Positions 1,229 through 18,003 of a stretch of 34,328 bases of DNA are shown here, piece after piece. Within the stretch, counting starts at the first letter, position 1, and the number at the start of each line of letters is the position of its first letter. Under the pieces are notes generated by a model. It made no database searches. It worked only from the letters and a program-made list of their open reading frames with translations, and was not told the DNA's origin. Position numbers and translations under genes: made by a program. The stretch spans positions 1-34,328 of the forward strand of contig CAMWRX010000023.1 in assembly GCA_947176765.1 (NCBI GenBank), in the 5' to 3' direction. Source of the DNA: an uncultured bacterium (lineage in GTDB: Bacteria; Bacillota; Clostridia; Oscillospirales; Oscillospiraceae).

Positions 1229-1245
1229 GTTGGGCCAAAACAAAC

Positions 1246-1283
1246 AAGGGGAATGCGTCTCACCATGAGACGCATTTCCCCTT
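1246..1283. repeat. Dispersed palindrome, copy 1 (full hairpin)
   Basis: The arms are 1246-1262 and 1266-1283 around a CCA loop, with one bulged base; the core is GCGTCTCA-CCA-TGAGACGC. It lies between the Maff2 and TrbL-like genes, just upstream of the ribosome binding site GGAGG of the latter. There is no U-tract after it, so it need not be a terminator. The same core recurs six more times in the element. Confidence 0.9.
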
Positions 1284-1300
1284 CATGGAGGTGAATTGCA

Positions 1301-2140
1301 ATGAGCGATAACTGGATCGTAAATATTCTGGAAAACGCGCTGACGGACTGGAACGGAAAGCTGTCTGAGATATGGACGCTGCTGACACAGACCCCGCAGA
1401 ACTTCAAAGGCGGAGACATCTGGACGGTGATCTCCGGCATACACACAGCCATGGTGGGGATCGGCTACGGCCTGCTGGTGCTGTTTTTCGCCATGGGTGT
1501 TTTCCAAAGCGCCGCCAGCTTTCGGGACTTCCAGCGCCCGGAATTTGCCCTGCGCCATTTCATCCGCTTCATTCTGGCAAAGGTGGCGGTAGGGAGCTGC
1601 ATGGAGATCATGACGGCCATTTTCAGCGTGTGCGGCGGCGTGGTTTCCGCCGTCATGGACAGTGTGGGCGGATCTGTCTCCACGGCGGCCACTTTGCCCA
1701 CTGAAATTGTAACAGCTATTAAGAGACTGGGCCTGTTGGAAAGCATACCTTTGTGGCTGGTGTCCCTGCTGGGCAGCCTGTTCATCACTGTCATGTCGTT
1801 CATTCTGCTGCTGACGGTGTATGGGCGGTTTTTCCGGCTCTATATGTTTACCGCCCTGGCCCCGCTCCCATTGGCGACCTTCGCCGGGGAGGCAACCGCC
1901 GCCAGCGGTAAAGCGTTTCTTAAAAGCTATATCGGCGTGTGCATGGAGGGGGCCGTAATCGTGCTGGCCTGCCTGATCTATTCCGCATTTCTGTCCAGCA
2001 GCACCCCGGCCGCCGACGCCAGCCTGCCCGCCGTCACCATGGCATGGCAGTACATCGGACAGCTCATTTTCAATATGCTGATCCTGACCGGGCTGGTAAA
2101 GGGCGCGGATCGGGTGGTGAAGGAGATGTTGGGGCTATAG
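1301..2140 (+). CDS. TrbL/VirB6-like conjugation channel membrane protein
   Basis: This is a polytopic membrane protein of 279 residues with at least five hydrophobic segments (around residues 45-70, 90-120, 145-175, 180-200 and 215-235). Position and topology fit the VirB6/TrbL inner-membrane channel component of Gram-positive conjugation systems. It starts at ATG 1301 behind GGAGG at 1287-1291. Its last 26 codons (ending in FNMLILTGLVKGADRVVKEM plus LGL) are found again about 630 bases downstream, after the inserted adenine methyltransferase gene. That points to a mosaic 3' end. The stop TAG at 2138-2140 overlaps the probable start of the methyltransferase. Confidence 0.87.
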   Translation: MSDNWIVNILENALTDWNGKLSEIWTLLTQTPQNFKGGDIWTVISGIHTAMVGIGYGLLVLFFAMGVFQSAASFRDFQRPEFALRHFIRFILAKVAVGSCMEIMTAIFSVCGGVVSAVMDSVGGSVSTAATLPTEIVTAIKRLGLLESIPLWLVSLLGSLFITVMSFILLLTVYGRFFRLYMFTALAPLPLATFAGEATAASGKAFLKSYIGVCMEGAVIVLACLIYSAFLSSSTPAADASLPAVTMAWQYIGQLIFNMLILTGLVKGADRVVKEMLGL

Positions 2141-2670
2141 GAAAATACAACATTATCTATGCCGACCCGCCCTGGAAATATGGACATAGGCACTCTGCGG
2201 ATAAGCACTATCCCACCATGCCTATTGAGGACATCAAGGCCCTGCCCGTGTCCGAACTGGCCGCCGACGACTGCACCCTGTTCCTCTGGATCACCATGCC
2301 CATGCTCCAGGAGGCGTGGGGCGTCATGGAGGCGTGGGGGTTCCGCTATGTGACCGCCGCTTTCGTCTGGATCAAACTGAGCCGGATATCCGACACCATC
2401 TTTTGGGGACACGGAAACTGGACAAGGGCTAACGCGGAGCTATGCCTGCTGGCTACCAAGGGGCACCCCAAACGGCTGGCCCGGAACGTTCACCAAGTCA
2501 TTATCTCCCATGTCCAGGAACACAGCCGGAAGCCGGACGAGGCCCGCCGCCGCATTGAAGCCCTGATGGGGGACGTGCCCCGTGTGGAGCTGTTTGCCCG
2601 CCGCCCCGCCCCCGGCTGGGATGTGTGGGGAAATGAAGTGGACAGCACGATTGACTGGATTACAACGTGA
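2137..2670 (+). CDS. MT-A70-family adenine DNA methyltransferase
   Basis: This is a protein of about 177 residues with the MT-A70 catalytic motif DPPW near its N-terminus (GKYNIIYADPPW), followed by HYPTMPIEDI and TLFLWITMPM as in mobile-element MT-A70 enzymes. The family transfers a methyl group from SAM to adenine N6. No restriction enzyme gene is visible nearby, so an orphan anti-restriction or regulatory role is likely. The expected start (ATG before GKYN) reads ATA at 2137-2139. An AAGGAG sequence at 2120-2125, inside the trbL-like gene, has suitable spacing for it. The frame is open upstream to ATG 2044, which would add residues unlike the family. Start codon use is therefore uncertain. 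Confidence 0.82.
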   Translation: MGKYNIIYADPPWKYGHRHSADKHYPTMPIEDIKALPVSELAADDCTLFLWITMPMLQEAWGVMEAWGFRYVTAAFVWIKLSRISDTIFWGHGNWTRANAELCLLATKGHPKRLARNVHQVIISHVQEHSRKPDEARRRIEALMGDVPRVELFARRPAPGWDVWGNEVDSTIDWITT

Positions 2671-2686
2671 AAGAGTATCTGTAAAA

Positions 2687-2767
2687 CAGCATATCTTCAA
2701 TATGCTGATCCGCACCGGGCTGGTGAAAGGCGCAGATCAGGTGGTAAAGGAGATGTTGGGGCTATGA
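2687..2767 (+). pseudogene. Duplicated 3' tail of the TrbL-like gene
   Basis: This 81-base stretch encodes QHIFNMLIRTGLVKGADQVV plus KEMLGL in frame, ending TGA. It matches codons at 2060-2140 of the trbL-like gene. About ten bases differ and many of the differences are synonymous in the trbL frame, so both copies were once coding. It is a remnant left when the methyltransferase segment entered the gene end. Its stop forms an ATGA overlap with a possible four-codon start (MKVF then stop), which is a dead fragment. Confidence 0.8.
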
Positions 2768-2812
2768 AGGTTTTCTAAGGTGGTTCTGGTGTTGATGTAG
2801 TTATCACGTCAA

Positions 2813-3286
2813 TTAGTCATCAATGGGTGGTTCTGGTATGGGAGCATTTATTATGTCTTGCGCTTGGTAATCATTAATGGGTGGCGGTTGTAATTGAGGA
2901 TAGCCACCATTTCCATCAAGACCGGGATCGGAGTTTGAAGTATTCGGCGAATCTGTATTACTATTTGAGCCTGGTATAGGCGTGGACACAGGGAGTGGAA
3001 TTGGAGTTTGTGCCGGAGTAGGGACAGGCGATGGCGTTTGGGTGGGCAATACAGGTGTCGACGTAGGTCCGGGAAGAGGTGTCGTTGAAATTATTGGGTT
3101 TGATTCAACACTTTGGGCTGGGCTTGAACTGGAGTTATCACCTGGATTGGAGAGATTGGGGAAAATGAGATAAGTCCATATCAATGTGCCAATAAAACCT
3201 ATGAGAAGGACAATAACTCCACTTACAATACCTACAAAAATATTTTCATTAATGCGCTCACGCTTATGCCTTTTATCTTCTTCCAT
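2813..3286 (-). CDS. Small single-pass membrane protein with Pro/Ser/Thr-rich tail (cargo)
   Basis: This is a 157-residue protein of unknown function. A charged N-terminus (MEEDKRHKRER) precedes one strong membrane helix at about residues 18-42. The rest is low-complexity and rich in Pro, Thr, Ser and Asn (TPVLPTQTPSPVPTPAQ and similar), with an acidic end. The topology suggests a cytoplasmic N-terminus and an extended surface stalk. The start ATG 3286 has a purine-rich site (GAGGGGAGGG) upstream. The gene lies backwards inside the transfer operon, between the duplicated trbL tail and prgI, and is AT-richer than its neighbours, so it is probably inserted cargo. I recognise no named family. 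Confidence 0.7.
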   Translation of the reverse strand: MEEDKRHKRERINENIFVGIVSGVIVLLIGFIGTLIWTYLIFPNLSNPGDNSSSSPAQSVESNPIISTTPLPGPTSTPVLPTQTPSPVPTPAQTPIPLPVSTPIPGSNSNTDSPNTSNSDPGLDGNGGYPQLQPPPINDYQAQDIINAPIPEPPIDD

Positions 3287-3358
3287 CGCTATGCCCTCCC
3301 CTCAAAGTTATTAAATAGAATTATTTAAATTATATCATTACAGAAAGGAAAAATCTAT

Positions 3359-3703
3359 ATGGAAATTAAAATTCCAAAAGAAGTACGCCAGCACAAGGAA
3401 AGCATTTTCTTCGGCCTGTCCACCCGGCAATTTTTCTGCGCCCTGTTCGCCGTGGGGATCGCTGTAGCTGTCTATCTGCTGCTGGGCAGCGTGGCCGGAA
3501 AGGAAACGGCGAGCTGGGTTTGCATTCTGGCTGCCGCGCCTGTGGCTGTGGCTGGCTTTTTCAGTTACAACGGCCTGACCCTTGAACAGTTCTTGTGGGC
3601 TTTCATCAAGTCCGAAATCCTCTGCGCCGGGGAACGGCGCTTTGTGTCCGAAAATTTCTACTACAATATGCTGAACCGAAAGGGGCGTGACGACTTTGAT
3701 TAA
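3359..3703 (+). CDS. PrgI-family conjugation membrane protein
   Basis: This is a 114-residue protein starting MEIKIPKEVRQ, with two hydrophobic segments (about residues 25-45 and 54-70) and the typical C-terminal NGLTLEQFLWAFIKSE stretch. PrgI-type proteins sit before VirB4 in Gram-positive transfer operons and correspond to VirB3-like channel components. ATG 3359 follows AGAAAGGAAAAA. The 3' end overlaps the virB4 start by 17 bases, which suggests coupled translation. Confidence 0.9.
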   Translation: MEIKIPKEVRQHKESIFFGLSTRQFFCALFAVGIAVAVYLLLGSVAGKETASWVCILAAAPVAVAGFFSYNGLTLEQFLWAFIKSEILCAGERRFVSENFYYNMLNRKGRDDFD

Positions 3704-6023
3704 ATCCCTGATCGCCGCCAACAAGAGCGAACGGGACAAGTTCAAGGTCCCCCGCAGCGTCCAGCAGTCCATCCCCATCAAGTGTATCTATGAAGATGGC
3801 ACATGGCAGGTGGGCCGGAAACACAGCCGGACGTGGCGCTTCACTGACGTGAACTACGCCGCCGCCTCCGAGGACGACCAGCGCGGGATCTTCCTGTCCT
3901 ACGGCGGGGTGCTGAACAGCCTGCCCACCGACGCCGCCGCCAAAATCACCATCATCAACCGCCGCCTCAACCCTGTGGCCTTTGAGCGCACCATGCTCAT
4001 GAAGGAGCGGGGGGACGGCCTGGACAAGTACCGCCGGGAGGCCAACGGCATCCTCACCCAGCGGGCAGCCGAGAGTAACAATCTGGTGCAGGAGAAGTAT
4101 ATCACCCTGTCCATTCCCCAGCGGAAGATCGAGGAATCCCGCGCCTATTTCCGGCGCGTGGACGCCAACCTTTCCAAGAGCTTCGGGCGGCTGGAATCCG
4201 GGGCGCGGGCCGTGTCCAACCATGACCGGCTCCGTATCCTCCACGACTTTTTCCGCCCCGGCGAGGAACAGTATTTCACCTTCGAGCAGACCGCCGCCAT
4301 TCGCCGGGGCCTGGACTTCAAAGACCTGATCTGCCCGGACGGTATGCGGTTCCGGGCGGGGCATTTTGAAATGGGGGACAAGGTGGGCCGCGTTCTGTTC
4401 CTCAAGGATTACGCCAGCTACATCAAGGACAGCATGATTTCCGCCCTGTCCGACTTCCCCCGGAACCTCATGCTGTCCATTGACATCCTGCCCATTCCTA
4501 CTGACGAGGCGGTGAAGGAAATTCAAAGCCGGATCATGGGCATTGAGACGGACATCACCCGTTGGCAGCAGCGGCAGAACGACAAGAACAATTTCACCGC
4601 CACCGTTCCCTATGACCTGGAACAGCTTCGGGGCGAGGCCAAGGAATTTCTGTCCGACCTCACCGAACGGGACCAGCGCATGATGTTTGCCGTGGTGACG
4701 CTGGTGCATATCGCGGACAGCCTGGAACAGCTTGACGCGGACACCGACGCCCTTATGTCCATTGGCCGGGAGCACCTCTGCCAATTCTCCGTCCTGCGCT
4801 ACCAGCAGGAGGACGGCTTGAACACCGTCCTGCCCTACGGCCTGCGCCGGGTGAAAGCCCTGCGCACCCTGACCACCGAGAGCACCGCCGTCCTCATGCC
4901 GTTCCGGGTCCAGGAAATCCAGGACGCGGGCGGCCTGTCCTACGGAGTGAACGCCATCAGCAAAAATCTGCTGATCTGTGACCGCAAGCGGCTGATCTCC
5001 CCCCACGCTTTCTATCTGGGTGTGTCCGGCTCCGGCAAGTCTATGGCGATGAAGTCCACGATCCAGAACGTGGCCCTCGCCACCGGGGACGATATTATTA
5101 TCATTGACGCCGAGCGCGAATACGGCCCCCTGGCCCGCGCCCTGGGCGGGGAAGTCATTGAAATCTCCCCCAACAGCAGGCACCACATTAACCCGTTGGA
5201 AGTGACCGAGAGCTACGGCGACGGGGAAAATCCCATTGCCATGAAGTCCGAAATCATCACCAGCATTTTGGAGCAGCAGATGGGCGTGGGCCGTCTGTCC
5301 GGCAGCCATAAATCCATCATTGACCGCTGTACCGCCAACGTGTACCAGGACTATTTCAACAACCGGGGCCGGGCACCCATGCCCCTGCTGACCGACTGGC
5401 GGAATGAAGTCATGCGGCAGGCGGACCCGGAGGCGCGGGAAATCGCCCTGGCCGCCGAGCTGATCACCGAGGGCAGCTTAAACGTGTTTGCCCACCCCGG
5501 CAACGTGAACATGGACAGCCGGATCGTGGTGTTGGACCTTTACGAGATGGGGGAGCAGCTTCGGCCCACCGCCCTGGTCGTCACTTTGGAGGCCATCCAG
5601 AACCGCGTCATGGAGAACCGCAAGCGGGGCAAGTATACATGGGTGTTCCTGGATGAAGTATATTTGTACTTCAAATACCACTATTCCGGGGAGTTTCTGT
5701 ACCGGGCATGGAAGCGCTTTCGGAAGTACGCCGGAATCATGACGGCGGCCACGCAGAACGTAGAGGAATGTCTGAAATCCGAGACGGCCCGGCTCATGCT
5801 GGCGAACTCTGAATTTCTGCTGCTGTTCAACCAGGCGGCCACCGACCGGGTGGAGCTTGCCAAGCTGCTGCATATTTCCGACACACAGATGGGCTATATC
5901 ACCAACGCCGAGGCGGGCCACGGCCTGTTGCGGATCGGCGGCTCCCTGGTGCCGTTCTCCAATACCATCCCCAGGGACACCGAGCTCTACCGTCTCATGT
6001 CCACCACTCCCGGCGAGAATTAA
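3687..6023 (+). CDS. VirB4/TraE-family conjugation ATPase
   Basis: This 778-residue protein matches the usual length of VirB4-type ATPases that power assembly of the type IV secretion channel and DNA transfer. A Walker A motif GVSGSGKS is at about residues 444-452. IIIIDAEREYGPLARALGGE follows as in the family, and Walker B VFLDEVYLYF is near residue 652. The downstream segment ATQNVEECLKSETARLMLAN is also typical. The start is GTG 3687 (VTTLIKSL), inside the end of prgI. The stop TAA runs directly into palindrome copy 2. Confidence 0.95.
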   Translation: MTTLIKSLIAANKSERDKFKVPRSVQQSIPIKCIYEDGTWQVGRKHSRTWRFTDVNYAAASEDDQRGIFLSYGGVLNSLPTDAAAKITIINRRLNPVAFERTMLMKERGDGLDKYRREANGILTQRAAESNNLVQEKYITLSIPQRKIEESRAYFRRVDANLSKSFGRLESGARAVSNHDRLRILHDFFRPGEEQYFTFEQTAAIRRGLDFKDLICPDGMRFRAGHFEMGDKVGRVLFLKDYASYIKDSMISALSDFPRNLMLSIDILPIPTDEAVKEIQSRIMGIETDITRWQQRQNDKNNFTATVPYDLEQLRGEAKEFLSDLTERDQRMMFAVVTLVHIADSLEQLDADTDALMSIGREHLCQFSVLRYQQEDGLNTVLPYGLRRVKALRTLTTESTAVLMPFRVQEIQDAGGLSYGVNAISKNLLICDRKRLISPHAFYLGVSGSGKSMAMKSTIQNVALATGDDIIIIDAEREYGPLARALGGEVIEISPNSRHHINPLEVTESYGDGENPIAMKSEIITSILEQQMGVGRLSGSHKSIIDRCTANVYQDYFNNRGRAPMPLLTDWRNEVMRQADPEAREIALAAELITEGSLNVFAHPGNVNMDSRIVVLDLYEMGEQLRPTALVVTLEAIQNRVMENRKRGKYTWVFLDEVYLYFKYHYSGEFLYRAWKRFRKYAGIMTAATQNVEECLKSETARLMLANSEFLLLFNQAATDRVELAKLLHISDTQMGYITNAEAGHGLLRIGGSLVPFSNTIPRDTELYRLMSTTPGEN

Positions 6024-6040
6024 ATCTCACCATGAGACGC
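6024..6040. repeat. Dispersed palindrome, copy 2 (short form)
   Basis: The core TCTCA-CCA-TGAGA (6025-6037) is followed by CGC. It begins at the last bases of the virB4 stop and ends nine bases before the cytosine methyltransferase start. The left arm lacks the GCG that pairs with the right-arm CGC in full copies. Confidence 0.88.
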
Positions 6041-6048
6041 GATTCAAC

Positions 6049-7113
6049 ATGGACGGCATCACGTTAGGCAGCCTGTTTGACGGCATTGGGGTATTCCCGC
6101 TGGCGGCCCGCCGCCATGGGATCGTGCCGTTATGGGCCAGCGAAATTGTAAAGGCCCCCATTTCCATCACCCGGCGCCACTTCCCGGATATGGAGCATTT
6201 GGGGGACATCACCAAACTGGACGGCGGGAAAATCCCCGCCGTCCATGTTCTCACCTTTGGCTCACCCTGTCAAAATTTATCACAAATTGGCAACCGAACC
6301 GGGCTGGCCGGGGTGAAATCAAGCCTGTTTTTTCACGCGATCAGAATTATCAAAGAAATGAGGGATGCAACTGACGGACAATACCCAGTTATCGCTGTTT
6401 GGGAAAATGTCATGGGAAGCCTTTCATCAAATGACCGGCTGGACTATGCAGAAGTGCTCCGGGCTTTCACAGACGCCGGTATTCCAATTCCTCGATCTGG
6501 ACGGTGGGCAAACGCCGGAATGGTGCGAGGCCAGGGGGTTGAACTGTGCTGGCGGCTCCTGGACGCCCAATATTGGGCAAGACCCCGGTTGGCACGACGC
6601 CAGCGGATCTTCCTCGTGGCCGATTTTGGAGGGCGGCGTGCTCACGAAATACTGTTTAAGCCCCGTTCAATGCTCCAAGTTTCTCCGGCTGGCAGAGAAG
6701 GCGGGGTGCCCGCCGCCCAGATTCATAGAGGCCCTGTTATTGAAGCAGGGGGGCGTATACCCATCGTCCGGCCCTTCCAGCTATTCCGCATGAGGGGCGC
6801 GGCCAACGACCGCTATCACGTCCAGTTCCGGGACAGCTTCGGTTTTATGAATGACCCATTTCCTACGCTGCTGGCGGGGGCGGCCTATCCTTTCGCGTTC
6901 TACTTTGCCGACGATCCGGGGGGCGGCTGTGTGCGGTTTCCCACGGAATTGGAAAGTGAGCGACTCATGGGCCTGCCCGATGGGTGGACCCTTTACGGCG
7001 CGGAAGGGGAGAAGATCAGCTCGGCCCAGCGTTACCGGGCGTTAGGAAACGCTATCGCCCTGCCATGCGCGGACTACATCATGGCGGGGATCAGGGAAGT
7101 TTTGGGGCGGTAA
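6049..7113 (+). CDS. DNA (cytosine-5)-methyltransferase
   Basis: This is a 354-residue C5 methyltransferase. Motif I is SLFDGIGVFPLAA near the N-terminus. The catalytic PCQ motif (GSPCQNLSQIGNR) holds the nucleophilic Cys near residue 77. Motif VI is AVWENVMG, motif VIII is RQRIFLVADFGG, and motif X is YRALGNAIALP near the end. It transfers methyl from SAM to cytosine C5. With no endonuclease next to it, it is probably an orphan enzyme protecting the element from host restriction. ATG 6049 begins the family-typical MDGITLGSLFDG; there is no good ribosome binding site, only palindrome copy 2 just upstream. The gene sits between virB4 and the hydrolase gene and is flanked by two palindrome copies, so it looks inserted. 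A second long frame overlaps its middle (6365-6793). Confidence 0.93.
   Translation: MDGITLGSLFDGIGVFPLAARRHGIVPLWASEIVKAPISITRRHFPDMEHLGDITKLDGGKIPAVHVLTFGSPCQNLSQIGNRTGLAGVKSSLFFHAIRIIKEMRDATDGQYPVIAVWENVMGSLSSNDRLDYAEVLRAFTDAGIPIPRSGRWANAGMVRGQGVELCWRLLDAQYWARPRLARRQRIFLVADFGGRRAHEILFKPRSMLQVSPAGREGGVPAAQIHRGPVIEAGGRIPIVRPFQLFRMRGAANDRYHVQFRDSFGFMNDPFPTLLAGAAYPFAFYFADDPGGGCVRFPTELESERLMGLPDGWTLYGAEGEKISSAQRYRALGNAIALPCADYIMAGIREVLGR
6365..6793 (+). CDS. Overlapping frame inside the C5 methyltransferase gene (possible dual coding)
   Basis: A 142-codon frame starting at ATG 6365 lies wholly inside the methyltransferase gene in another frame. It begins MQLTDNTQLSLFGKM and contains GQTPEWCEA, a TPNIGQ segment and KYCLSPVQCSKFLRLAEKAG near its C-terminus. 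From memory, stand-alone proteins with the same order (QLTDNTQLSLFGK at the start, then KYYLSPKACxGILRRAxKRG) are annotated near methyltransferase genes in Firmicute phages and ICEs. That resemblance is unverified. Since the methyltransferase frame also keeps motifs VI and VIII across this stretch, both frames may be in use. The start has only GAGGG immediately upstream. A chance open frame in GC-rich DNA remains possible. Confidence 0.45.
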   Translation: MQLTDNTQLSLFGKMSWEAFHQMTGWTMQKCSGLSQTPVFQFLDLDGGQTPEWCEARGLNCAGGSWTPNIGQDPGWHDASGSSSWPILEGGVLTKYCLSPVQCSKFLRLAEKAGCPPPRFIEALLLKQGGVYPSSGPSSYSA

Positions 7114-7118
7114 ATCTC

Positions 7119-7155
7119 ATAGAGATGGCGTCTCACTATGAGACGCCATCTCTAT
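7119..7155. repeat. Dispersed palindrome, copy 3 (perfect 17-bp stem)
   Basis: The arms 7119-7135 and 7139-7155 are perfectly complementary around a CTA loop; the core is GGCGTCTCA-CTA-TGAGACGCC. It follows the cytosine methyltransferase stop, which itself runs into AATCTCA (half a core). It could end transcription weakly, but there is no U-tract. Confidence 0.92.
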
Positions 7156-7184
7156 TGCAAACTTGAGTAAAATCTATACCCGCT

Positions 7185-7974
7185 TTATTCACACTTTAAT
7201 TCAACATACTCAAAAAATACTGGAGCATCCATTTTTTCATTATCGAGGTATTTTTCATACTCTTTCCGCAATTCGTCCACATAGTCTCCTTTGAGGCTGC
7301 TTAATATGGTTGTAATGCTTTTCTTTTCATCAAATTTTTTAAATGGATTTAGCCCATTCTCGTATTTTACCCGGTTCCATTCTGACTTTAAATAGACTTG
7401 AACTGCAAAGTTTAGCATTCGCCGATTGTGAGTAAAATCATCAGATTGTTGATGTTGTGATTTCACAAATTTAATCAAATAATCTGACACAACACGGTCA
7501 AATGGTGCTTGTATATTCAAATATAATGACAGTATATATGCATTCTTCAAAAACTCATTGTATCTATCTTCAAATAAGCCCTGATCACAGATATTTCTCA
7601 AATCATAGCACACGATATTTGCTGTTATGTTTCGCACAGAATCAATCCATAGATTTCTTTTGTTGCTAATACCATCAATATGTATTTTTCGAGCAGATGT
7701 AATCAAGTTAGCTATGCCAAGTATTGCCGTCGCAATGACTCCACCTGATGTAATTATTTGTACAACGTTTACTTTGGGAGCGTCACCGTTTTGAGAAGTG
7801 TTTTCCTCTGGTTTATTATTAGAACCGTTTGATTGAGTCTCGCTTTCATTTAGCATCTCGGATGGCTCAACGCAAGGCGATACATCGGGCGCAGCATAGG
7901 CAGTCATTGATAATAGCATAAATGAAAAAGCGGAAATTAATGCCAATATAAATAGCGTATTTTTTTTGAATCAC
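7185..7974 (-). CDS. Cargo membrane or secreted protein with A8 frameshift tract after its start
   Basis: The main frame (7185-7946, minus) encodes a signal-like hydrophobic N-terminus ending MTAYAA, an Asn/Ser/Glu-rich linker, a second hydrophobic segment (GGVIATAILGIANLI, about residue 70) and a charged mostly helical domain. I recognise no family. The good start signal is GTG 7974-7972 with AGGAAG seven bases upstream, but the run of eight A (7960-7967, T on the plus strand) throws it out of frame. With seven A it would read MIQKNTLFILALISAF, a proper signal peptide joined to the main frame. So the gene is either switched by slippage at A8 or recently broken, or it starts at TTG 7946. A strong promoter lies upstream. 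The gene is AT-rich and reversed relative to the transfer genes. Confidence 0.7.
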
Positions 7975-8009
7975 AGATATTCTTCCTATAAACTTTTTGC
8001 TGTGTCCAT

Positions 8010-8038
8010 ATATTACATGACTTTTTGTTGTGATTCAA
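8010..8038 (-). promoter_or_regulatory. Promoter of the A8-tract cargo gene
   Basis: On the minus strand the sequence is TTGAAT, 17 bases, then TAATAT, about 35 bases before the GTG start at 7974. The match to the housekeeping sigma consensus is good, so the cargo gene is probably transcribed independently of the transfer operon. Confidence 0.65.
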
Positions 8039-8081
8039 TTCTTTTGGTAATATTTTAAAAATTTAAAGGGGAATCAGTATT

Positions 8082-10109: not shown

Positions 10110-10110
10110 A

Positions 10111-10141
10111 AAATAAATCTCACGGTGAGACGCATTTTTTT
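10111..10141 (+). terminator. Dispersed palindrome, copy 4, acting as intrinsic terminator
   Basis: The core TCTCA-CGG-TGAGA (10118-10130) is followed by CGCA and a run of seven or more T, right after the hydrolase stop. The stem can extend AAAT to ATTT across a bulge. The T-run on the plus strand makes it a likely terminator of the transfer operon. Confidence 0.8.
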
Positions 10142-10152
10142 GTTTTGTGTTC

Positions 10153-10600
10153 TCTATGAGAGCGTCCTGCCCCCTTCTATTAGCTAAAACGCTATAGCTT
10201 GCAATTGAGCGGCAAGCTAAACAGTTACCTGGCCAACATTCATTATAATCTATTGTGCCATTTGCAGTATAGAATCCATTGTGATACGTAGGATTTCCAC
10301 TGCCCGTACTATCCATCGCACCATCAACAAATCCAACTTCGATCCATGACAAACCCGAACTTGATTCATTTCTAATCCAAGTAGTATGAAGAATGAATTA
10401 GTTTTTGGCAGCAACGGTATTAGCCCACTTTGAATCAAGCGGCTGTGTTACAGCATAGAAATATGCACCATCTATATTGCTGGAGGTTATAATAGTTCGC
10501 GGAAGCTCCACAAACCAGTGAAAGCATCATTGCCAACGCAACAACAGTACCGCCAACACCTTTTAATAATTTTTTTGAACTATTGACGCTTACGTAACAC
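10153..10600 (-). pseudogene. Remnant of a small secreted-protein gene
   Basis: Reading the minus strand from about 10,590, one frame gives a clear signal peptide (KKLLKGVGGTVVALAMMLSL ending CGASA). Continuation is in a different frame (IITSSNIDGAYFYAVTQPL), then hits a TAA, and then continues with FILHTTWIRNESSSGLSWIE and VGFVDGAMDSTGSGNPTY. So at least one frameshift and one in-frame stop separate the pieces, and no start codon is in frame with the signal peptide. It resembles small secreted proteins of the neighbouring island and is decayed. Confidence 0.65.
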
Positions 10601-10603
10601 TTA

Positions 10604-12283
10604 TCAATGCTGTCTTAAATATCGTTCTATTTTTGTAAGACCTGTGGTTCTGGCCTTTTGACTGAGCACTACGTCATAATTCCTAAGCACCTGATCAATG
10701 GCAACCGCATTGCTTCCGTTGAGAATAGCCCGAACATCAAAGCCATGGTCACCTCTGGGCAGAAACAGGTCATCCATTCCAGGGGTGCTGGCAAACCGAA
10801 CCCACATCATTTCTGCCAATTTGGACAACAGATCATCGCTGGACAAAATCAATTGTGTTGCCAATTCCCGCCCCATGGGATAGTCCCAGAAACGCTTGCC
10901 GACACCAATATCAGTAGACTGATCCTGCATCAGATTCTGAAATAGATTGTTCTTTTGAGTGATTTGCGTCCCGCTTTGGGTAATTTTTGTCCCGGATGAA
11001 CGCCCATTAAGTACGCCTTCCCGCCCATTTTCAAAAAATGATTCCCTCTCAGCCAGTTTCCGCCGTGTATTGGCAATGATAGCTGCGGAGTTGGTCGCTC
11101 CTTCGCAGGGTTCGTCAAAGATTTGATATGTCGTTTGGAATTTTCCGTTTTCATATACAAATATGGGATCGGTAAACTCCGGGGTGCCGGTATACCTTTT
11201 GACCAAATTGATGTAAGCGTACCCGGTTTTTTTCATAAATTCGCCTTCATCACTGTCAATCACCGCCTGAGCCTCCGGCGTCTTTCCCACAATCTTGCCG
11301 CCGCGATACTCGAGGTCATCAATTCCAAACCCATATTGAGCTTTCAGTTCTTTGTCCATCCGGCAACGTTCATAGGCGCTGTATAATTGATTCATTTTTT
11401 GAACATAGTTTACCGATACGGAAACAACCCCAAATACAGGAATCGCATCCTTACAGCGTAAGCTGTCTACCATCCAGGGAACATAGCCCCCGTCCTCCTG
11501 CCGGTGATTATGGATGGCACCAAGGGTCGCAAGTAGGTTATCTTCGGTATAGTTTGAGGTATTAAGCACTTTTTCAATCAGGGAGTTTTCTTCGTCTGTC
11601 CCACCAGATACAACAAATTGAAACCTCGACGTATCCAAGTAGAAAGAATAGGACTTATTCTCGTCAAAGGTCATGCCATTGGCCTCAAATTCTGACCGAA
11701 CTCTGTCAAAGACGCGATCCATTTTCTGATCAAATGTGCTGTTGGCATGATCGACATCTTCCGCCTTTGCGCTGAGAAGTTTTTCTGTATCATTCAAACC
11801 CACAGTAGCAGCCTTATCATTCAGTACAACTCCATAGCTCGAAAGGACACTGTTTTGGGCTAATTCATCTGAGCTGAGCAGCATTGCCTTTACATTGATA
11901 TCTCGCCAACTCGGGGGCAATTCTCTCTGATGCGCAGTCCAACTAAGGGTTTCCCACATTGTTTTTGCTATCTTCTCTTGAAGTCCTTCATCTGCCAAAA
12001 TAATTTCCGTAGCCAGTTCCCGGCCTACAGGGTGATTTATGAAATTCCTCCTCTTATACTGTGAAAAAGACGTATCCTGCCGCAACTGTTCCGTTAATGC
12101 TTCGATTCGGGCCTGAGATGCGGAACTCACTGTGGCAGAAGTGGACAGATACTGCTGATATGCACTACTAACTGCCCACTTGTCTTGTTGTGGGGATGTA
12201 ATGGCGTGGGGAGATTTTTGTGTTCCACTTGCCGCAACATTGGGAGTGGAAGCAGGTATGGCAGAGTTAATCTCAACCTTCAT
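10604..12283 (-). CDS. Unknown 559-residue protein with a duplicated terminal domain
   Basis: I cannot name this family. The protein has no signal peptide or membrane helix. Its N-terminus (MKVEINSAIPAS, then Ser/Thr/Gln-rich) looks disordered. Residues about 78-172 and 462-557 are repeats of one another: both have HPVGRELATEIIL or YPMGRELATQLIL, then MW, then a stretch ending SSYGVVLNDKAATVGL or RNYDVVLSQKARTTGL. The middle (about 190-440) is a separate mixed domain. ATG 12283 has AGGTGA upstream. A TTGACA at 12414-12419 (minus) may be part of its promoter. Its GC content is lower than that of the transfer genes. It is the last intact gene of the reverse-strand island, and whether it belongs functionally with the sigma and secreted genes upstream is unknown. 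Confidence 0.75.
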   Translation of the reverse strand: MKVEINSAIPASTPNVAASGTQKSPHAITSPQQDKWAVSSAYQQYLSTSATVSSASQARIEALTEQLRQDTSFSQYKRRNFINHPVGRELATEIILADEGLQEKIAKTMWETLSWTAHQRELPPSWRDINVKAMLLSSDELAQNSVLSSYGVVLNDKAATVGLNDTEKLLSAKAEDVDHANSTFDQKMDRVFDRVRSEFEANGMTFDENKSYSFYLDTSRFQFVVSGGTDEENSLIEKVLNTSNYTEDNLLATLGAIHNHRQEDGGYVPWMVDSLRCKDAIPVFGVVSVSVNYVQKMNQLYSAYERCRMDKELKAQYGFGIDDLEYRGGKIVGKTPEAQAVIDSDEGEFMKKTGYAYINLVKRYTGTPEFTDPIFVYENGKFQTTYQIFDEPCEGATNSAAIIANTRRKLAERESFFENGREGVLNGRSSGTKITQSGTQITQKNNLFQNLMQDQSTDIGVGKRFWDYPMGRELATQLILSSDDLLSKLAEMMWVRFASTPGMDDLFLPRGDHGFDVRAILNGSNAVAIDQVLRNYDVVLSQKARTTGLTKIERYLRQH

Positions 12284-12463
12284 TTAATTCACCTAACCTT
12301 TCTGCACCCGATCTCGGAAATCTGACATTGATTGTGTCCCAAACATATAAAAGATTGACTATCTATAAAGTGGCTCTAATGCAGGAATTGTTATTTTGCT
12401 CAAAACCGTAGTTTGTCAAGATGCACAGAAGCAGCCACAAGTATGCGGTGTGTACACAGGGGC

Positions 12464-12497
12464 AATTGGTGCCACCCCGCATGAGGTGGCACCAATT
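12464..12497. terminator. 13-bp inverted repeat between island genes
   Basis: AATTGGTGCCACC and its exact complement flank an 8-base loop. It lies downstream of the 342-codon secreted gene on the minus strand and upstream of the 559-residue gene. It probably ends the sigma-operon transcript, though the following U-tract is weak. Confidence 0.6.
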
Positions 12498-12542
12498 TCA
12501 AATCGTCCAAAGTTTAGCTGGGGTACTTCTATACATATTACA

Positions 12543-13559
12543 TTAGGCACCAAAAGCATACAGATATTCCATGCGTACTTGCCCCCGGTACTGGTAAGAA
12601 CCCGAATACGATGTGCCAAGCCACGATACATTGGTGAGGCTAATCTTGTAGGTGCCCTGTGCATCACTCGTACCGACAACACTCGGTATAGCATCAAACA
12701 CATTAGGAGAAGAACTTACATTTGATGGAACCATATTTATTGCTGTATTTGGAAGGGCAACATTCAAACTTGCCCTCGAAATATAAGAGTCACCAGTTGA
12801 GGACAGTTTTTTAATTGTCACCTTATTAACCCATGCCCGTTTAGGGATTCCATAACTCTGCAAAGGGTATGCGGCAGAAGCTGTGTAACGCGCAGATACA
12901 GACAGAGTAATAGTTCCCAATACAACAGTGGCTTTCTTAGTTAGTGGTGCGCCAAACCAGAAGGAGTAATGCGGGCAAGTATCTACCGAATCTGTCGAAA
13001 ATGTCACCATATACTCGCTTTGGCCCGATTGCATAGGCGTTAACTCAATAAAATAAACTGTATGTCCATTATCGGATGACTTTTTATAGTACTCCACCAG
13101 GTTGGCTGCTTTCACTCCATCCGTATCTACCACAAGCTGCCCCATGGTATTTACCACTTCAAATTTTACTTCAGGATCAGCATAAATGGTCAGCGTATTA
13201 TAGCAAACCGTTGTATTGCTTCGGGTATACTCCAAGTTATAGAAGTAGTACCGTTGAAGCTCATCAGAGTTTCGCAAATAGGCACCATAGCGATAATAGT
13301 TAGGCGGATAGTCATTTATGCTACTAGGGAGTCTATTCTCCAGCGATGCACGGACACGCATAACAGTTTCACCATCACTGGTTTCAAATGGTTCTTTTTT
13401 GTATTCATCATATGCATCAATGCTATCTACAGCGCTGAAATCAAATTCCGAAGGGGCTTCAGCGGCATTAACGGGTATCGGGAACAGGCAACATGAGATA
13501 ATTAACGATGCACATACACAGTACATCAAAATGCGGCCCAACTTTTTCTTCAGCGTCAT
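12543..13559 (-). CDS. Secreted protein of unknown function (cargo island)
   Basis: This protein of about 338 residues has a classical signal peptide (basic MTLKKKLGR, hydrophobic core, cleavage likely after VNA-A). The mature part is rich in Tyr, Ser, Thr and Val with many alternating hydrophobic residues, suggesting beta-rich folds. It has no LPxTG anchor and no catalytic motif that I recognise. ATG 13559 is preferred because AGGAG lies 10-14 bases upstream; the GTG at 13571 would overlap that site. It is the most downstream gene of the run sigma, anti-sigma, DUF6147, secreted protein, and is probably part of the same regulon. Its GC content is lower than that of the transfer genes. Confidence 0.72.
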   Translation of the reverse strand: MTLKKKLGRILMYCVCASLIISCCLFPIPVNAAEAPSEFDFSAVDSIDAYDEYKKEPFETSDGETVMRVRASLENRLPSSINDYPPNYYRYGAYLRNSDELQRYYFYNLEYTRSNTTVCYNTLTIYADPEVKFEVVNTMGQLVVDTDGVKAANLVEYYKKSSDNGHTVYFIELTPMQSGQSEYMVTFSTDSVDTCPHYSFWFGAPLTKKATVVLGTITLSVSARYTASAAYPLQSYGIPKRAWVNKVTIKKLSSTGDSYISRASLNVALPNTAINMVPSNVSSSPNVFDAIPSVVGTSDAQGTYKISLTNVSWLGTSYSGSYQYRGQVRMEYLYAFGA

Positions 13560-13571
13560 CTTAATTAGCAC

Positions 13572-13979
13572 TCCTCTTCTTTTTCTGTAAAATGTTGAAT
13601 GGGATCATTGTTGCAAGAATCAGGTACAGGAAACGCTTTTTTCCTGTGGAATCACCTCTTTCACGATTATAAGATCTTGATGATCTTGTATACAATGCTG
13701 CCTTTCCCATCCATAGTCGGCAAGGGCACTCACATAGTTATCCCCCTTAAGTTTTCCTTCATAAAATATAACGGTGGAGGTATTGCATTTTGGACACAGG
13801 AAAAGGCAATTTTAGAGGATTTATATATACGCTAAATCTTTCTATAAATCCAAGACCTGTGCCAGCAATTTGTGAGGCAAAGCCCAACGAATTATTATAC
13901 TTTGCAGAACGCAGGAACATACACCTTCTAAAACAGTCTTCGTTTTTTGTTTTGGACAGTATTGATCAGATTTTGCTGC
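13572..13979. other. Intergenic stretch with small gene remnants
   Basis: About 400 bases separate the two secreted-protein genes. On the minus strand a short piece reads KKRFLYLILATMIPFNIL and KKKRSAN then stop, like a signal peptide or small membrane peptide, but it has no start codon in frame. I see no convincing gene on either strand and no strong terminator. It may hold decayed coding DNA. Confidence 0.4.
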
Positions 13980-14396
13980 TTAACTCGTTAATTGCTGAGT
14001 ACTGACCCCTGCGGCATCCTTAACATAGATCATTACCACAGCGCGGTACTCCACCCCGCTAAAGCGCGGCGGATACGTTAGCACCATACCATGCCAATCG
14101 CTGTTTTCCACCAGGAGGGCCGGGGTATTGCTGGTGTTGAACGTGTATTCCGTTGTCCAGCCGTTGCCGGAGCTGCGCTGAATCGCCACGCTGGTGGCGC
14201 CGATCTTCTCCATGATATCGTTGGCTTGCACAGAAAAGTAAATGCTGAGGTCGCCATTGCTTTTCTTGGAAAGCGTCACCGTACTGCGCACAATCCGATC
14301 ACTTGCTCGTGTTTCTGCTGCATAGGCAGGGATGTTAAACAGCATCACCAAACACAGGAGCATGGGCATGATATGAATAGGCCACTTTTTCTTCAC
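13980..14396 (-). CDS. DUF6147-like small secreted protein
   Basis: This is a 138-residue protein with a signal peptide (MKKKWPIHIMPMLLCLVMLF, cleavage near AYAAE). The mature domain starts ETRASDRIVR and has the alternating pattern of DUF6147 proteins: a VQANDIMEKIGATSVAIQ stretch, a Trp-containing turn, and a closing segment with YPPRFSGVEYRAVVMIYVK. This family is found as small exported proteins in gut Clostridia; the function is not known. The start is GTG 14396 with a very strong site (AAAAGGAGG). It lies 13 bases after the anti-sigma-like gene and is thus in its operon. Confidence 0.78.
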   Translation of the reverse strand: MKKKWPIHIMPMLLCLVMLFNIPAYAAETRASDRIVRSTVTLSKKSNGDLSIYFSVQANDIMEKIGATSVAIQRSSGNGWTTEYTFNTSNTPALLVENSDWHGMVLTYPPRFSGVEYRAVVMIYVKDAAGVSTQQLTS

Positions 14397-14409
14397 AAAA
14401 ATCCTCCTT

Positions 14410-15351
14410 TTACGTAAACATGGATTCTACAACTTGCCACAGGATGTCTTTTCCCACTTTTGAACTGACGTAATACTCATACTGATCCGTACACCAAGCA
14501 ATCGTCCAGTCCTTTGTATTTTGGATCAGGTAGAAAGTAATCCCGTCCTTCACCATTGATTCCACCGAGCCGTCAACTTTCTGTACCTGGGTGGCAGGTT
14601 CCCCCTCGTAGTTCATGATGCCGATGGAAATAATCCCCTTGCCGTCCGTATAGGATACCGAAAAGGAGCGCAGGAACGGATCATCCATGGCCAGCACGTC
14701 AAGACGATCCAAGACATACCCCTCCGGGAGCCAGCCCGGCTCGTGTACCTCCGTCATGCCGTAGGCATCGAGCGCTTCCTGTAAGGAAGCGAACTCGGTG
14801 TCGGGGGCTTCTGTTTCCTGTCCCGCTGTCTTCTGGGCCGGGTCATCGGACACCTGGCTATCGGGCACGATCTGCCCGAAGCTGAACACGTCCTCCGTCC
14901 ATCGGGCCATCGCTCCGAACACATCAACACCTGCGGCTTGGGCCGTGACCATGACGGCAAGCATACAGGCAACCGCAGCGGCGGCGACCAGGACTGTGCG
15001 GCGCATCTGTTTGAATCGGATCACACGCTTTGAGGGGGCATTAGTGGACGGCTGGGGTGTCTGCGGGGATGCGGTGTGTTCCAGATTCTCAGGCTCAGCT
15101 TCGGTTTCGCTGGCGCTGGGCATATAGTAGGTCACGAATTCGTTCCATTGCTGGTCTACATCAGGGAAAAATCCTGTGGGATTTTCGTTTTCTTTTTCGC
15201 TAATCGCCTCCTCCAGTGCGCTCATATACGCTTCGTCCTCCGGCCTGTCTGAGAGCGCTGGCGCAACTGCCAGCAGATCCAACAGCTTATCGATGGGGAG
15301 TTTGCGCAGATAGGCGTATTCTTTATAATCGTGCCTGTTTATTTCATCCAT
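14410..15351 (-). CDS. DUF4367-domain anti-sigma-like membrane protein
   Basis: This is a 313-residue single-pass protein. The cytoplasmic part (1-117) has acidic and Pro-rich stretches, and the membrane helix is at about 119-140 (RTVLVAAAAVACMLAVMVTA). An outer C-terminal domain from about 200 matches the DUF4367 pattern (GMTEVHEPGWLPEGYVLDRL and a later SYTDGKGIISI). Such proteins pair with ECF sigma factors in Clostridia and are thought to hold the sigma factor at the membrane. The gene follows the sigma gene by about 97 bases and precedes the secreted genes. ATG 15351 has a GGGGGAC site upstream. The anti-sigma role is inferred from topology and context. Confidence 0.82.
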   Translation of the reverse strand: MDEINRHDYKEYAYLRKLPIDKLLDLLAVAPALSDRPEDEAYMSALEEAISEKENENPTGFFPDVDQQWNEFVTYYMPSASETEAEPENLEHTASPQTPQPSTNAPSKRVIRFKQMRRTVLVAAAAVACMLAVMVTAQAAGVDVFGAMARWTEDVFSFGQIVPDSQVSDDPAQKTAGQETEAPDTEFASLQEALDAYGMTEVHEPGWLPEGYVLDRLDVLAMDDPFLRSFSVSYTDGKGIISIGIMNYEGEPATQVQKVDGSVESMVKDGITFYLIQNTKDWTIAWCTDQYEYYVSSKVGKDILWQVVESMFT

Positions 15352-15448
15352 GTTGTTGTCCCCCTGTTATACATATCCCGTGAGCGGGTCGTTTTTCGAC
15401 AGCGCTCCAAAGAAATTTTTAGATTGTAATTATTGTCAAAAATCAAGT

Positions 15449-15952
15449 CTATGATTTGTGAAATTCGCTCAACGCCTGTTGGAGTTTCTCGCGAATTCGC
15501 TCGAACCGCTTGTAGCAGGTGGTGAGTTTTATGTTCTGCCGCCGTGCTTCTTCGAGAAAAGTGGATAATCCCTTGGCAATTCTCAAGAAGAAAGCAAATT
15601 CATCTTCCGTCACTACGCTTTGGCAAAACTCTGCCAACTCTGAATCGCTGCTGTCCGAACAGGAAGGCTCTTTGTTGTGGTTGAGAAGTTCTAAAGACAT
15701 AAATAGCGATGCCGTCCGCTTTTGATCCTCTAAAATATGTAATGCCCGGTGACGAACTGTGCTTTTCATCCATCCAACGGGGTTTTTGATGCGCATAAGT
15801 TCCTCCGGCCGTTGGCAGGCGACTACAAATGCCTCTTGTACCGCCACCTCCGCTTCTGCTTGTTTTCCCAGTATGGAGAAGGCGAGAATATAGAGTTTGC
15901 GATAATATGTGTGATATATTTCCGCTATAAAGCGATTTGCAATTTCATCCAT
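15449..15952 (-). CDS. ECF-type RNA polymerase sigma factor
   Basis: This protein of 167 residues has a region 2-like N-terminus (FIAEIYHTYYRKLYILAFSI, then EAEVAVQEAFVVAC, then NPVGWMKSTVRHRALHIL) and a divergent region 4 (LSTFLEEARRQNIKLTTCYK, then a RIREKLQQALSEF helix). The pattern fits sigma-70 family ECF factors that direct polymerase to a small regulon. ATG 15952 follows AAAAGGAGCG at good spacing; the upstream start at 15979 lacks such a site. The gene heads a reverse-strand operon with the DUF4367 protein, which probably restrains it. The regulon may include the secreted proteins downstream. A vegetative-type promoter lies upstream. Confidence 0.85.
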   Translation of the reverse strand: MDEIANRFIAEIYHTYYRKLYILAFSILGKQAEAEVAVQEAFVVACQRPEELMRIKNPVGWMKSTVRHRALHILEDQKRTASLFMSLELLNHNKEPSCSDSSDSELAEFCQSVVTEDEFAFFLRIAKGLSTFLEEARRQNIKLTTCYKRFERIREKLQQALSEFHKS

Positions 15953-16043
15953 AAGTGTTCGCTCCTTTTGTGACCACAATACTTATGCACGAGCATAATC
16001 TCCACATTTTGGAATAATATTTGTGCTCTATGTTTACAGCTAC

Positions 16044-16071
16044 ATTGTACCATGCAGAGCCGGAAGTTCAA
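16044..16071 (-). promoter_or_regulatory. Promoter of the sigma/anti-sigma operon
   Basis: On the minus strand: TTGAAC, 16 bases, TACAAT, about 90 bases upstream of the sigma gene start. The match to the housekeeping consensus is good, so basal expression need not depend on the ECF factor itself. Confidence 0.6.
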
Positions 16072-16167
16072 AGCCTAAAAGTTAAAATCTTCTTCGCAAA
16101 GGATGAAACAGGGGGCGGACATGGTAGGATAGCATATACTAAACATCGATTTATTTGCCACACTACA

Positions 16168-16192
16168 AATTTGTCTCACCGTGAGACGAATT
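16168..16192. repeat. Dispersed palindrome, copy 5
   Basis: An 11-bp stem with one G-U pair around CCG; the core is GTCTCA-CCG-TGAGAC (16173-16187). It lies in the roughly 560-base intergenic region between the divergent sigma genes. Confidence 0.88.
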
Positions 16193-16242
16193 ATTCGGAA
16201 TATATTGCTTTTAGGAAAAGCAGTATCTCTTTGTGTGTTTTA

Positions 16243-16251
16243 TGATATACT
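16243..16251 (+). promoter_or_regulatory. Extended -10 promoter upstream of the hairpin leader
   Basis: TGATATACT is an extended -10 element (TGN plus TATACT). The -35 is poor. Transcription from here would run through palindrome copy 6 (a terminator) before reaching the sigma-like gene at 16514, making an attenuator arrangement possible. Confidence 0.4.
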
Positions 16252-16326
16252 GTGTCGAAGAATGATATTTTATATAAGCGACGGTGCCAGTGCCTTTTCT
16301 TTTAGGGCCGGGTGCGAAACTTGTCT

Positions 16327-16360
16327 AAAAAATGCGTCTCATGATGAGACGCATTTTTTT
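16327..16360 (+). terminator. Dispersed palindrome, copy 6, with U-tract
   Basis: A perfect 15-bp stem (16327-16341 and 16345-16359) around TGA, with the core ATGCGTCTCA and its complement, runs into seven T. It has the form of an intrinsic terminator and lies in the leader of the sigma-like gene. Reversed it also gives a T-run, so it may work both ways. Confidence 0.9.
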
Positions 16361-16433
16361 AGCTTAGAAAACCCCTCATGATAACCGCAGAAAATGTTGT
16401 AACCCATAGAATAAAATTTTGTTTTGCCTACTT

Positions 16434-16463
16434 TTGAAAGTTCTTTTAGTTTTTACCTATCCT
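16434..16463 (+). promoter_or_regulatory. Possible promoter of the sigma-like/Orf8-like pair
   Basis: TTGAAA, 18 bases, TATCCT, about 50 bases before ATG 16514, in an AT-rich stretch after the hairpin. The match is moderate. Confidence 0.45.
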
Positions 16464-16513
16464 GCGTTGTGATACTTATGTAGGCAACAGAAGGTGAACA
16501 GAAGGGAACACAA

Positions 16514-16942
16514 ATGACATTAGAACAATTCCATATATTCCAGGAACAAACCTTTGACTCGTTTATAACACATTTAGTAACGAATGAAGGTAAGAATGCA
16601 AGAAAAGAAATTGCACGCAGGGCGAAAAAAGAGGTTGCAATGTCCCAGCTCCTGGACAGTGAGCTTGCTCGCCTTGCAGTAACCGATACATATGATATTG
16701 AGGAGATGACATTTTCTGTTCATGATGAGATAGTCACCGTTAAAGACTTGCTTTTAGGCCAAGCTATCGCTTCTTTGCCCCCAATGCGGCGTGAAGTAAT
16801 CCTGTTGTCCTATTTTTTAGGAAAGAATGACCCACAAATAGCGAAGCTATTAAATCTAACACCAAATACAATTCGTTACCGCAGACAAACAACACTTCAA
16901 AGGTTAAAAGAGATACTGGAGGTGCTTACGAGTGAAAAATAA
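16514..16942 (+). CDS. Sigma-70-like regulator of the conjugative element
   Basis: This 142-residue protein has a C-terminal region-4 helix-turn-helix (LPPMRREVILLSYFLGKNDP, then IAKLLNLTPNTIRYRRQTTL). It resembles the sigma-like Orf7-type regulators of Tn916-like and related ICEs, which activate excision or transfer genes. The N-terminal half is helical and charged, without an obvious full region 2. ATG 16514 follows a weakly purine-rich stretch (CAGAAGGGAAC). Its 3' end overlaps the next gene by 11 bases, indicating coupled translation. The composition is more AT-rich than the transfer genes, as is common for control genes. Confidence 0.85.
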   Translation: MTLEQFHIFQEQTFDSFITHLVTNEGKNARKEIARRAKKEVAMSQLLDSELARLAVTDTYDIEEMTFSVHDEIVTVKDLLLGQAIASLPPMRREVILLSYFLGKNDPQIAKLLNLTPNTIRYRRQTTLQRLKEILEVLTSEK

Positions 16943-17192
16943 AAAGATGGTGCCATATTCTGTGATAGTAGCGGCGAAGGAAGGTGATCCAGACGCGATA
17001 AATACAATACTGTCACACTATGACAGTTATATTGACCATCATTCGCGACGCACTCTATATGACGAATATGGCAATGCGCACAGTGCAATCGATCCAGAAA
17101 TCAAACAGCGCATTCGCACCAAAATCATTGATAGAATAATTCATGACTTTAATCCTTTCCGCCTGCCCGAAGGGGAAATCCTTGAGGAATAA
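16932..17192 (+). CDS. Small Orf8-like helix-turn-helix-region protein of ICEs
   Basis: This is an 86-residue protein containing VAAKEGDPDAINTILSHYDS, then RRTLYDEYGN, and ending RLPEGEILEE. This is the pattern of the small Orf8-type proteins paired with sigma-like Orf7 in Tn916-like elements; they look like a partial sigma region 2. Together the two proteins may form a split sigma factor, one giving the core-binding part and the other the DNA-binding part (inference). The start is GTG 16932, overlapping the previous gene. A long hairpin begins right at the stop. Confidence 0.83.
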   Translation: MKNKKMVPYSVIVAAKEGDPDAINTILSHYDSYIDHHSRRTLYDEYGNAHSAIDPEIKQRIRTKIIDRIIHDFNPFRLPEGEILEE

Positions 17193-17620
17193 TTGTCGTT
17201 CCTTATAAGCGTATCTATCTTTTCAGGTGCGCTTATAAGGGCCGACAACTGGCCCTATAGCATTTCAAAATTGAATAAGGCAATCAGATACGTTCCACTA
17301 TGTGTTGAGCCAGACGGCGGGTGCGCAGGGAAATTCCACCGGGAAAGGAGGCAAGGAACCGGTAGGAATAGAGCGAATAACACCAACGCCATAATGCAGT
17401 TTCAGACAGAAACAAGGGTATGGCTGCGGGCGACGATACGCATATGGGGGATGATGATACTTGCGTCGGCTATGCGTCACAGCGTAGGACGCCCCGCCCA
17501 CAGGAATGGGGGGAGGCACGATAATAACCTATGAAGCGGTTCACCCACCGCTGTCTGTATTGCCTTTTGAGATATATCGTGAAACAGCAAAATCCGCACT
17601 GACCACCAGTGCGGATTTTG
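17193..17620 (+). ncRNA. Candidate structured non-coding RNA
   Basis: No convincing gene lies here, but many hairpins do. TTGTCG-TT-CCTTATAAGCG at 17193-17211 pairs with 17230-17248 (17 bp with a 2x2 internal loop). GTTTC-AGACA-GAAAC is at 17399-17413. GCGTC-GG-CTATGC at 17463-17475 pairs with GCGTAGGACGC at 17482-17492. A GC-rich hairpin is near 17490-17517, and AGCGGT-TCACCC-ACCGCT is at 17535-17552. A strong terminator closes the stretch. A purine-rich segment (GGGAAAGGAGGCAAGGAACC) is at 17340-17359. A 113-codon frame exists but has low complexity, no ribosome site and an unlikely composition. The class of RNA is unknown; it could be a trans-acting RNA or a long leader. It lies between the regulator pair and the integration genes. 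Confidence 0.55.
17588..17620 (+). terminator. Strong intrinsic terminator
   Basis: CAAAATCCGCACTG and its exact complement flank a 5-base loop, ending GGATTTTG. It works in both directions and closes the structured region. Confidence 0.88.
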
Positions 17621-17627
17621 TCGTTTC

Positions 17628-17650
17628 AAATCTCACCATGAGACGCATTT
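17628..17650. repeat. Dispersed palindrome, copy 7 (short form)
   Basis: The core TCTCA-CCA-TGAGA (17631-17643) is preceded by AAA and followed by CGCATTT, nearly identical to copies 2 and 4. It lies between the terminator and the 64-residue gene. Confidence 0.88.
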
Positions 17651-17681
17651 CATTAAAGGAAGGGGCCTTCATTTCACCATC

Positions 17682-17973: not shown

Positions 17974-18003
17974 TTCGACTTCTTTAAGAGAGGACGGGTT
18001 GAT

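Follow-up and report, generated by a model that had tools for sequence, protein, structure and literature searches.

What does a conjugative element do with one short palindrome repeated along its length, and which molecule reads it? This question is raised by a 34,328-nucleotide contig of an uncultured Oscillospiraceae bacterium (GenBank assembly GCA_947176765.1, contig CAMWRX010000023.1; here called the window, meaning the whole stretch analysed), which carries part of an integrative and conjugative element (ICE). A first-pass annotation of the sequence had listed seven copies of TCTCA-NNN-TGAGA and had offered several roles for them. Our analysis suggests that the palindromes are probably double-stranded DNA operators, dispersed over the element, for a ParB-family protein that this family of ICEs encodes. 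Judged from sequence comparison, an element-confined operator family is real, and it is most likely read by the ICE-encoded ParB-type protein. Among the roles offered at first, that of protein-binding sites is the one that survives.

The exact sequence TCTCANNNTGAGA was found seven times in the window, where dinucleotide shuffles give an expectation of 0.01. Each core lies within a 27-bp site. The sites, together with the VirB4 gene, are as follows.

1251..1277 (core 1258-1270), plus strand: site 1, 27 bp, full GCG/CGC arms, between a TrbC-type pilin gene and the next gene
3687..6023, plus strand: VirB4-type ATPase gene, the anchor for finding related elements
6018..6044 (core 6025-6037), plus strand: site 2, AAA/CGC arm class, overlapping the VirB4 stop
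7124..7150 (core 7131-7143), plus strand: site 3, 3' of the C5-methyltransferase gene
10111..10137 (core 10118-10130), plus strand: site 4, AAA/CGC class with a T-run, 3' of the NlpC/P60 gene
16167..16193 (core 16174-16186), plus strand: site 5, in the gap where a sigma-like gene on the minus strand diverges from plus-strand genes
16330..16356 (core 16337-16349), plus strand: site 6, long paired arms with a T-run
17624..17650 (core 17631-17643), plus strand: site 7, AAA/CGC class, 5' of the serine recombinase gene

The arms are of the full GCG...CGC class at three of the seven sites, AAA...CGC at three and TTG...CGA at one. The T-runs at 10118 and 16337 confirm the U-tracts described earlier for two copies. 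Past the recombinase the window holds no exact core, every copy lying before 17644, so that the flank described as chromosomal is indeed free of them; between 19700 and 34328 no palindrome with 6-bp arms occurs three times or more.

The family extends to related elements. A VirB4 protein search gave 52 loci in genome contigs, mostly of Oscillospiraceae type (numbered with L). In the 47 of these that were scored (L039, L052, L055, L072 and L075 were left out; 681 kb), 110 exact cores were counted, compared to 0 for the reversed control. A site lay within 75 nt of the VirB4 stop at 31 of 47 ends scored; here L032 and L051, whose contigs end near the stop, were also left out, and the window and L005 were added. 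In the window's own genome the exact core occurred at 19 places and the reversed pattern at none. Twelve of these are in the window or contig C76, six are in blocks that share homology with other ICE loci, and the remaining one (contig C18, loop GTC) is outside ICE-type DNA. With 18 of 19 copies inside, the proposed confinement to the element also held against the host chromosome. The ParB-bearing controls E. faecalis L162 and Monoglobus L163 (ParA + ParB) had no palindrome with 6-bp arms and gaps of 0-8 that occurred three times or more. Exact patterns of two dialects (see below) found 0 matches each in viral contigs, which is weak evidence of absence because the patterns are strict.

The spelling of the sites bears on whether DNA or RNA is recognized. 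Over the related elements the 27-bp site has the form AAATNCGT[C/T][C/T]CAC-S-GTG[A/G][A/G]ACGNATTT, with dialects TCTCAC, TTTCAC and TCCCAC that change on both arms. Compensated TCCCA..TGGGA sites are found in L034, L036, L041, L065 and L071, and compensated TTTCA..TGAAA sites in L038, L046, L049, L050, L067, L068 and L073; in all of these the exact core is absent or nearly so. Usually there is one main dialect per element, and each element family seems to have a spelling of its own. The earlier suggestion that paired changes reflect selection is thus supported by compensated versions on both arms. Among 252 unique sites, with both orientations merged, the centre base is C or G in 246, and positions -1/+1 are C..G in 159 and A..T in 18 (the half-site pair CCCAA/CCCAA also has 18). 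A divergent ParB clade has GTCCCAA-S-TTGGGAC as its site, with -1/+1 shifted from C..G to A..T. The three-base loop of the first description was therefore given up: the centre of symmetry is a single base, and the supposed loop positions vary as a dyad pair. Because these bases change as a palindromic pair around a central C or G, a 27-bp double-stranded operator fits better than an RNA loop.

A candidate reader was found by ParB_N searches, which revealed large ParB proteins within site-rich elements of genome G017. The ParB_N domain (PF02195) matched at E 1.7e-19 in L080 and 6.2e-19 in L079, in two stretches each, and the helix-turn-helix DNA-binding core of the ParB/Noc/KorB fold is also present. 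An AlphaFold2 (AF2) model of the core (pLDDT 87.5) matches structures of Noc, ParB, Spo0J and KorB, some of them DNA-binding domains in complex with their sites. In 22 aligned cores G85, R87 and R88 of the GxRR nucleotide-pocket motif, which we take to be CTP-binding, are invariant. In L079, RepA_N and DUF7678 proteins are encoded upstream of parB; no ParA was found among six neighbours scanned at this locus, the only one scanned. In 12 of 24 loci examined, a tandem parB and the VirB4 gene of the ICE share a contig. The dialect at parB agreed with that of the sites elsewhere on the element, a mixed one with mixed ones, in all 11 same-contig loci with a parB start available.

The position of the palindrome relative to parB is nearly fixed. 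All 24 parB genes whose start could be resolved have a palindrome 21-49 bp upstream of the ATG. Twenty-one of these palindromes are family members and three are degenerate (L080, L152, L157), and 18 (15 family, 3 degenerate) are at 36-41 bp. Further family copies lie within 130 bp upstream of parB in L133, L134, L135, L136, L138, L141 and L151, and L155 has one further upstream copy too. The 24 genes are not 24 independent events, since some are close relatives (e.g. L134-L136). Starts were chosen by means of N-terminal peptides listed by hand after earlier output. Outside the 24 stand L137, whose sequence breaks off ahead of the parB start, and L010, a remnant without ATG; the count also leaves out partial N-terminal ParB matches (L129; G053 C7, C11, C18) as well as type-2 and chromosomal-type ParBs. 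On the ParB tree, hand-set dialect labels required 7 changes for 7 labels, compared to a mean of 12.2 after shuffling, and 0 of 200 shuffles were as low. Single recognition-helix residues were considered as dialect determinants and dropped, as the correlation was not clean.

A number of observations weigh against ParB operators, at least in their simplest form. Sites with a C.A mismatch, TCCCA..TGAGA, give mixed dialects in L024, L026, L043 and L054, L064 mixes two TT and two CT sites, and 63 of 252 sites depart from the dyad by having C..A or T..G at -1/+1. Recognition-helix residues track dialect uncleanly, with L142 and L143 (CT) among TT relatives. The own assembly yielded no intact tandem ParB, only a fragment on contig C17 (L010 7529-8400) that has an in-frame TAG, follows a palindrome by 39 nt and carries ACG in place of the relatives' ATG. 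In 5 of 23 genomes searched there was no good tandem ParB match (best 27-33% identity), though their loci carry sites (G051, G052, G054, G060 and G062; loci L063, L064, L066, L067 and L059); four of the five loci are either at the end of a contig or on a short one. The sites of the window, L005 and L024-L075 (173 unique sites) are biased in the VirB4 sense, with centre CCA in 27 and TGG in 7, and AAA on the left arm in 39 and TTT on the right arm in 8; a plain palindromic operator should be strand-neutral. Moreover, 109 of 133 intergenic sites are 3' of a plus-strand gene, a position that makes up 258 of 403 gaps in the background; divergent gaps hold 16 of the 133 sites and account for 88 of the 403 gaps. 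Promoter operators alone would give another distribution. The ORF calls behind these gene-end counts are crude, and many of 68 "inside" calls look spurious. Finally, outside the 27 bp the arms still pair somewhat more often than chance predicts, at 0.45, 0.37, 0.37 and 0.35 for positions 14-17 (expected 0.37, 0.29, 0.25 and 0.26).

The strand bias, the preference for gene 3' ends and the extra pairing also speak for RNA hairpins at gene ends that have a conserved core and serve as attenuators, as intrinsic terminators or in mRNA stability. Stems of 15-17 pairs are found in places, and inverted double copies occur between apparent convergent ORFs. However, a T5 run follows the stem in only 40 of 201 copies (random positions, 1.5%), and an A5 run is found on the other, left side in 47 of 201. 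As a family trait the U-tract therefore failed, while single copies may still terminate. Arm mismatches outside the AAA/TTT classes are G.U in 36 and A.C in 37 cases (132 unique sites). Only one of the seven window sites is terminator-like, on the minus strand, by a scan that misses stem-internal T-runs such as those at 10118 and 16337, and terminators require no common sequence. The dyad change at the supposed loop positions and the copies upstream of parB starts argue in the same direction. So do copies within genes: the window sites had been described as lying between genes, but related elements hold some copies inside coding sequence. In several relatives these lie in an NlpC-type gene, where 10 of 10 copies scored in the gene's own frame are in phase 0 (L063 was left out as phase 2 as translated, and L034 as past its gene). 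In L063 both copies are in phase 0 in a frame that begins like the relatives' genes. Inside crude plus-strand ORFs of at least 300 amino acids, 26 of 32 copies are in phase 0. The in-frame copies, the A-runs that match the T-runs and the missing G.U excess point to a dyad DNA site, as far as sequence comparison goes. Hairpins as the main function, including the attenuators proposed earlier, were demoted on the dyad change, the in-frame copies, the T5 counts and the mismatches, and we consider this explanation unlikely. Some copies may act in RNA too, given the strand bias, the preference for gene 3' ends and the extra pairing.

Operators of another element-encoded DNA-binding protein, of sigma/HTH or Xre type, with parB as one target among others, would fit the symmetry equally, as any dyad-binding protein fits a palindrome, and further regulator-like genes are present. 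Against this stand the palindrome before parB in 24 of 24 genes (parB being the only regulator promoter so tabulated), the structure of the dialects on the ParB tree and the identity of one dialect's half-site with that of parS, and another regulator seems quite improbable. Palindromic repeats that are mobile and spread within elements, whether REP-like or as hot spots of cassette exchange, could account for multiple, mostly intergenic copies, in places in tandem pairs, and for the fact that the window and C76 differ in the gene after the VirB4 site. A mobile repeat should reach the chromosome too, yet 18 of 19 genome copies are in ICE-type DNA, and the spacing to parB is nearly fixed; we regard this as very improbable. 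The related proposal of cargo entry points stands in so far as gene content after the VirB4 site differs between the window ICE and C76; there is no sign that the palindromes mediate the difference. A role of GTCTC in modification or as an uptake-like site was likewise rejected, and with it the idea that a modification enzyme reads it: half-sites are not enriched outside the palindromes (window 1-19700: GTCTC 8, expected 10.4; GAGAC 7, expected 13.2).

For ParB operators, the following mechanism can be envisaged. The protein, by its two ParB_N domains and its ParB/Noc/KorB-type helix-turn-helix core, would bind the palindromes and, when bound, repress its own gene. By analogy with KorB it would act as a CTP-dependent clamp that loads at the scattered sites and slides along the element, and the sliding clamp may silence the whole element or mark it for maintenance, as KorB on RK2. 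The palindromes are thus best described as putative sites of KorB-like loading or silencing that are spread over the ICE, and we infer the binding itself. More tentatively, a ParA-less tandem-ParB clamp might load at the dispersed sites, coat whole ICEs and silence them, and the dialect code might let a resident element silence or exclude incoming ICEs of the same dialect and not others; we think this possible though doubtful. If true, the element-specific dialect code would be the conjugative counterpart of phage immunity. If KorB-like sites are the right description, ICEs of gut Bacillota have an element-wide regulatory layer that we did not find in the literature searched. The ParB proteins with their matched dialects would offer a natural series for testing how specificity and site spacing evolve, and the palindromes a simple sequence signature to delimit these ICEs in draft genomes.

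By Pfam, the genes around the window sites encode a VirD4-type coupling protein, a TrbC-type pilin, an MT-A70 methyltransferase, VirB4, a C5-methyltransferase, an NlpC/P60 protein, cargo, sigma/HTH proteins and the serine recombinase. Past the recombinase, a glycosyltransferase, a formate/nitrite transporter and tRNA-Leu are among the genes. Rfam at the gathering threshold gave tRNA as its sole match. Window 6018-6056 and L005 1722-1760, from related ICEs of the same genome, have a common sequence that spans the palindrome and the next ATG; beyond this ATG they part, with the C5-methyltransferase in one and another ORF in the other. The in-frame copies lie in the low-complexity N-terminal part of the NlpC-type gene (L046 12687-13070, L058 5813-6096, L050, L067, L073), where they encode N-x-[F/S]-H-x-E-T at a spacing of 41, 45 or 82 codons. 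In L010, a short ORF resembling the RepA N-terminus (by eye) is followed by the palindrome and then by the ParB fragment. A wide ParB search had matches in at least 7 of 394 genomes among the matches listed, own genome included, which is no prevalence estimate because at most 4 candidates per genome were scored. A second, different dispersed palindrome family, CTTYGGGACA-NNN-TGTCCCRAAG, was noticed in L078 (G017 contig C4), with exact GGGACANNNTGTCCC seven times, at 5515, 6316, 9080, 10993, 13364, 15348 and 16545. It lies near a type-2 ParB gene (L077 18175-19740), and in L122 one copy of it is found behind a type-2 ParB.

Several known systems resemble the ICE palindromes in part. The consensus parS given in PMC7383237 is TGTTTCAC-GTGAAACA, whose half-site GTTTCAC is identical to that of the TT dialect alone. 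The same source gives the Noc site NBS as TATTTCCC-GGGAAATA, which differs from the ICE palindrome, and the ICE system is element-borne. A competing published view takes the ParB domains of polyvalent proteins, which lack ParA, for likely NTP-regulated DNases; it concerns DdrB-like ParB domains, which may not include the ICE ParB (PMC5512222). In contrast to the even 16-bp palindrome of parS, the listed dialects have one extra central base. The ICE protein, like ParB, has ParB_N followed by the HTH core; its sites are instead dispersed over the element, without ParA among the scanned L079 neighbours.

The stoperators of mycobacteriophages also have site variants that differ between relatives. 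They are asymmetric and bound by a monomeric repressor, whereas the ICE sites are palindromic and tied to a ParB-type protein. Likewise, many repressor sites are spread over a mobile genome (PMC9283540, PMC6550527). The ICE ParB differs from KorB in its second ParB_N domain and its occurrence in Bacillota ICEs, with repression putative here, and the half-site GT[C/T][C/T]CAC differs from TTTTAGC of KorB. On RK2, KorB operators are dispersed over the plasmid, one of them at KorB's own promoter. The dispersal is matched here by the seven sites in the ICE part of the window and the 110 cores in 47 loci, and the operator at the own promoter is paralleled by the palindrome upstream of the putatively self-regulated parB in 24 of 24 genes. 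The KorB operator OB has the form ATTTTAGCGGCTAAAAG, with the extra central base, a style of spacing that the TT dialect of the ICEs has in common with it (PMC11790492). In the account of the same source, KorB is a ParB-family CTP clamp that silences RK2 replication and transfer genes from OB sites (PMC11790492).

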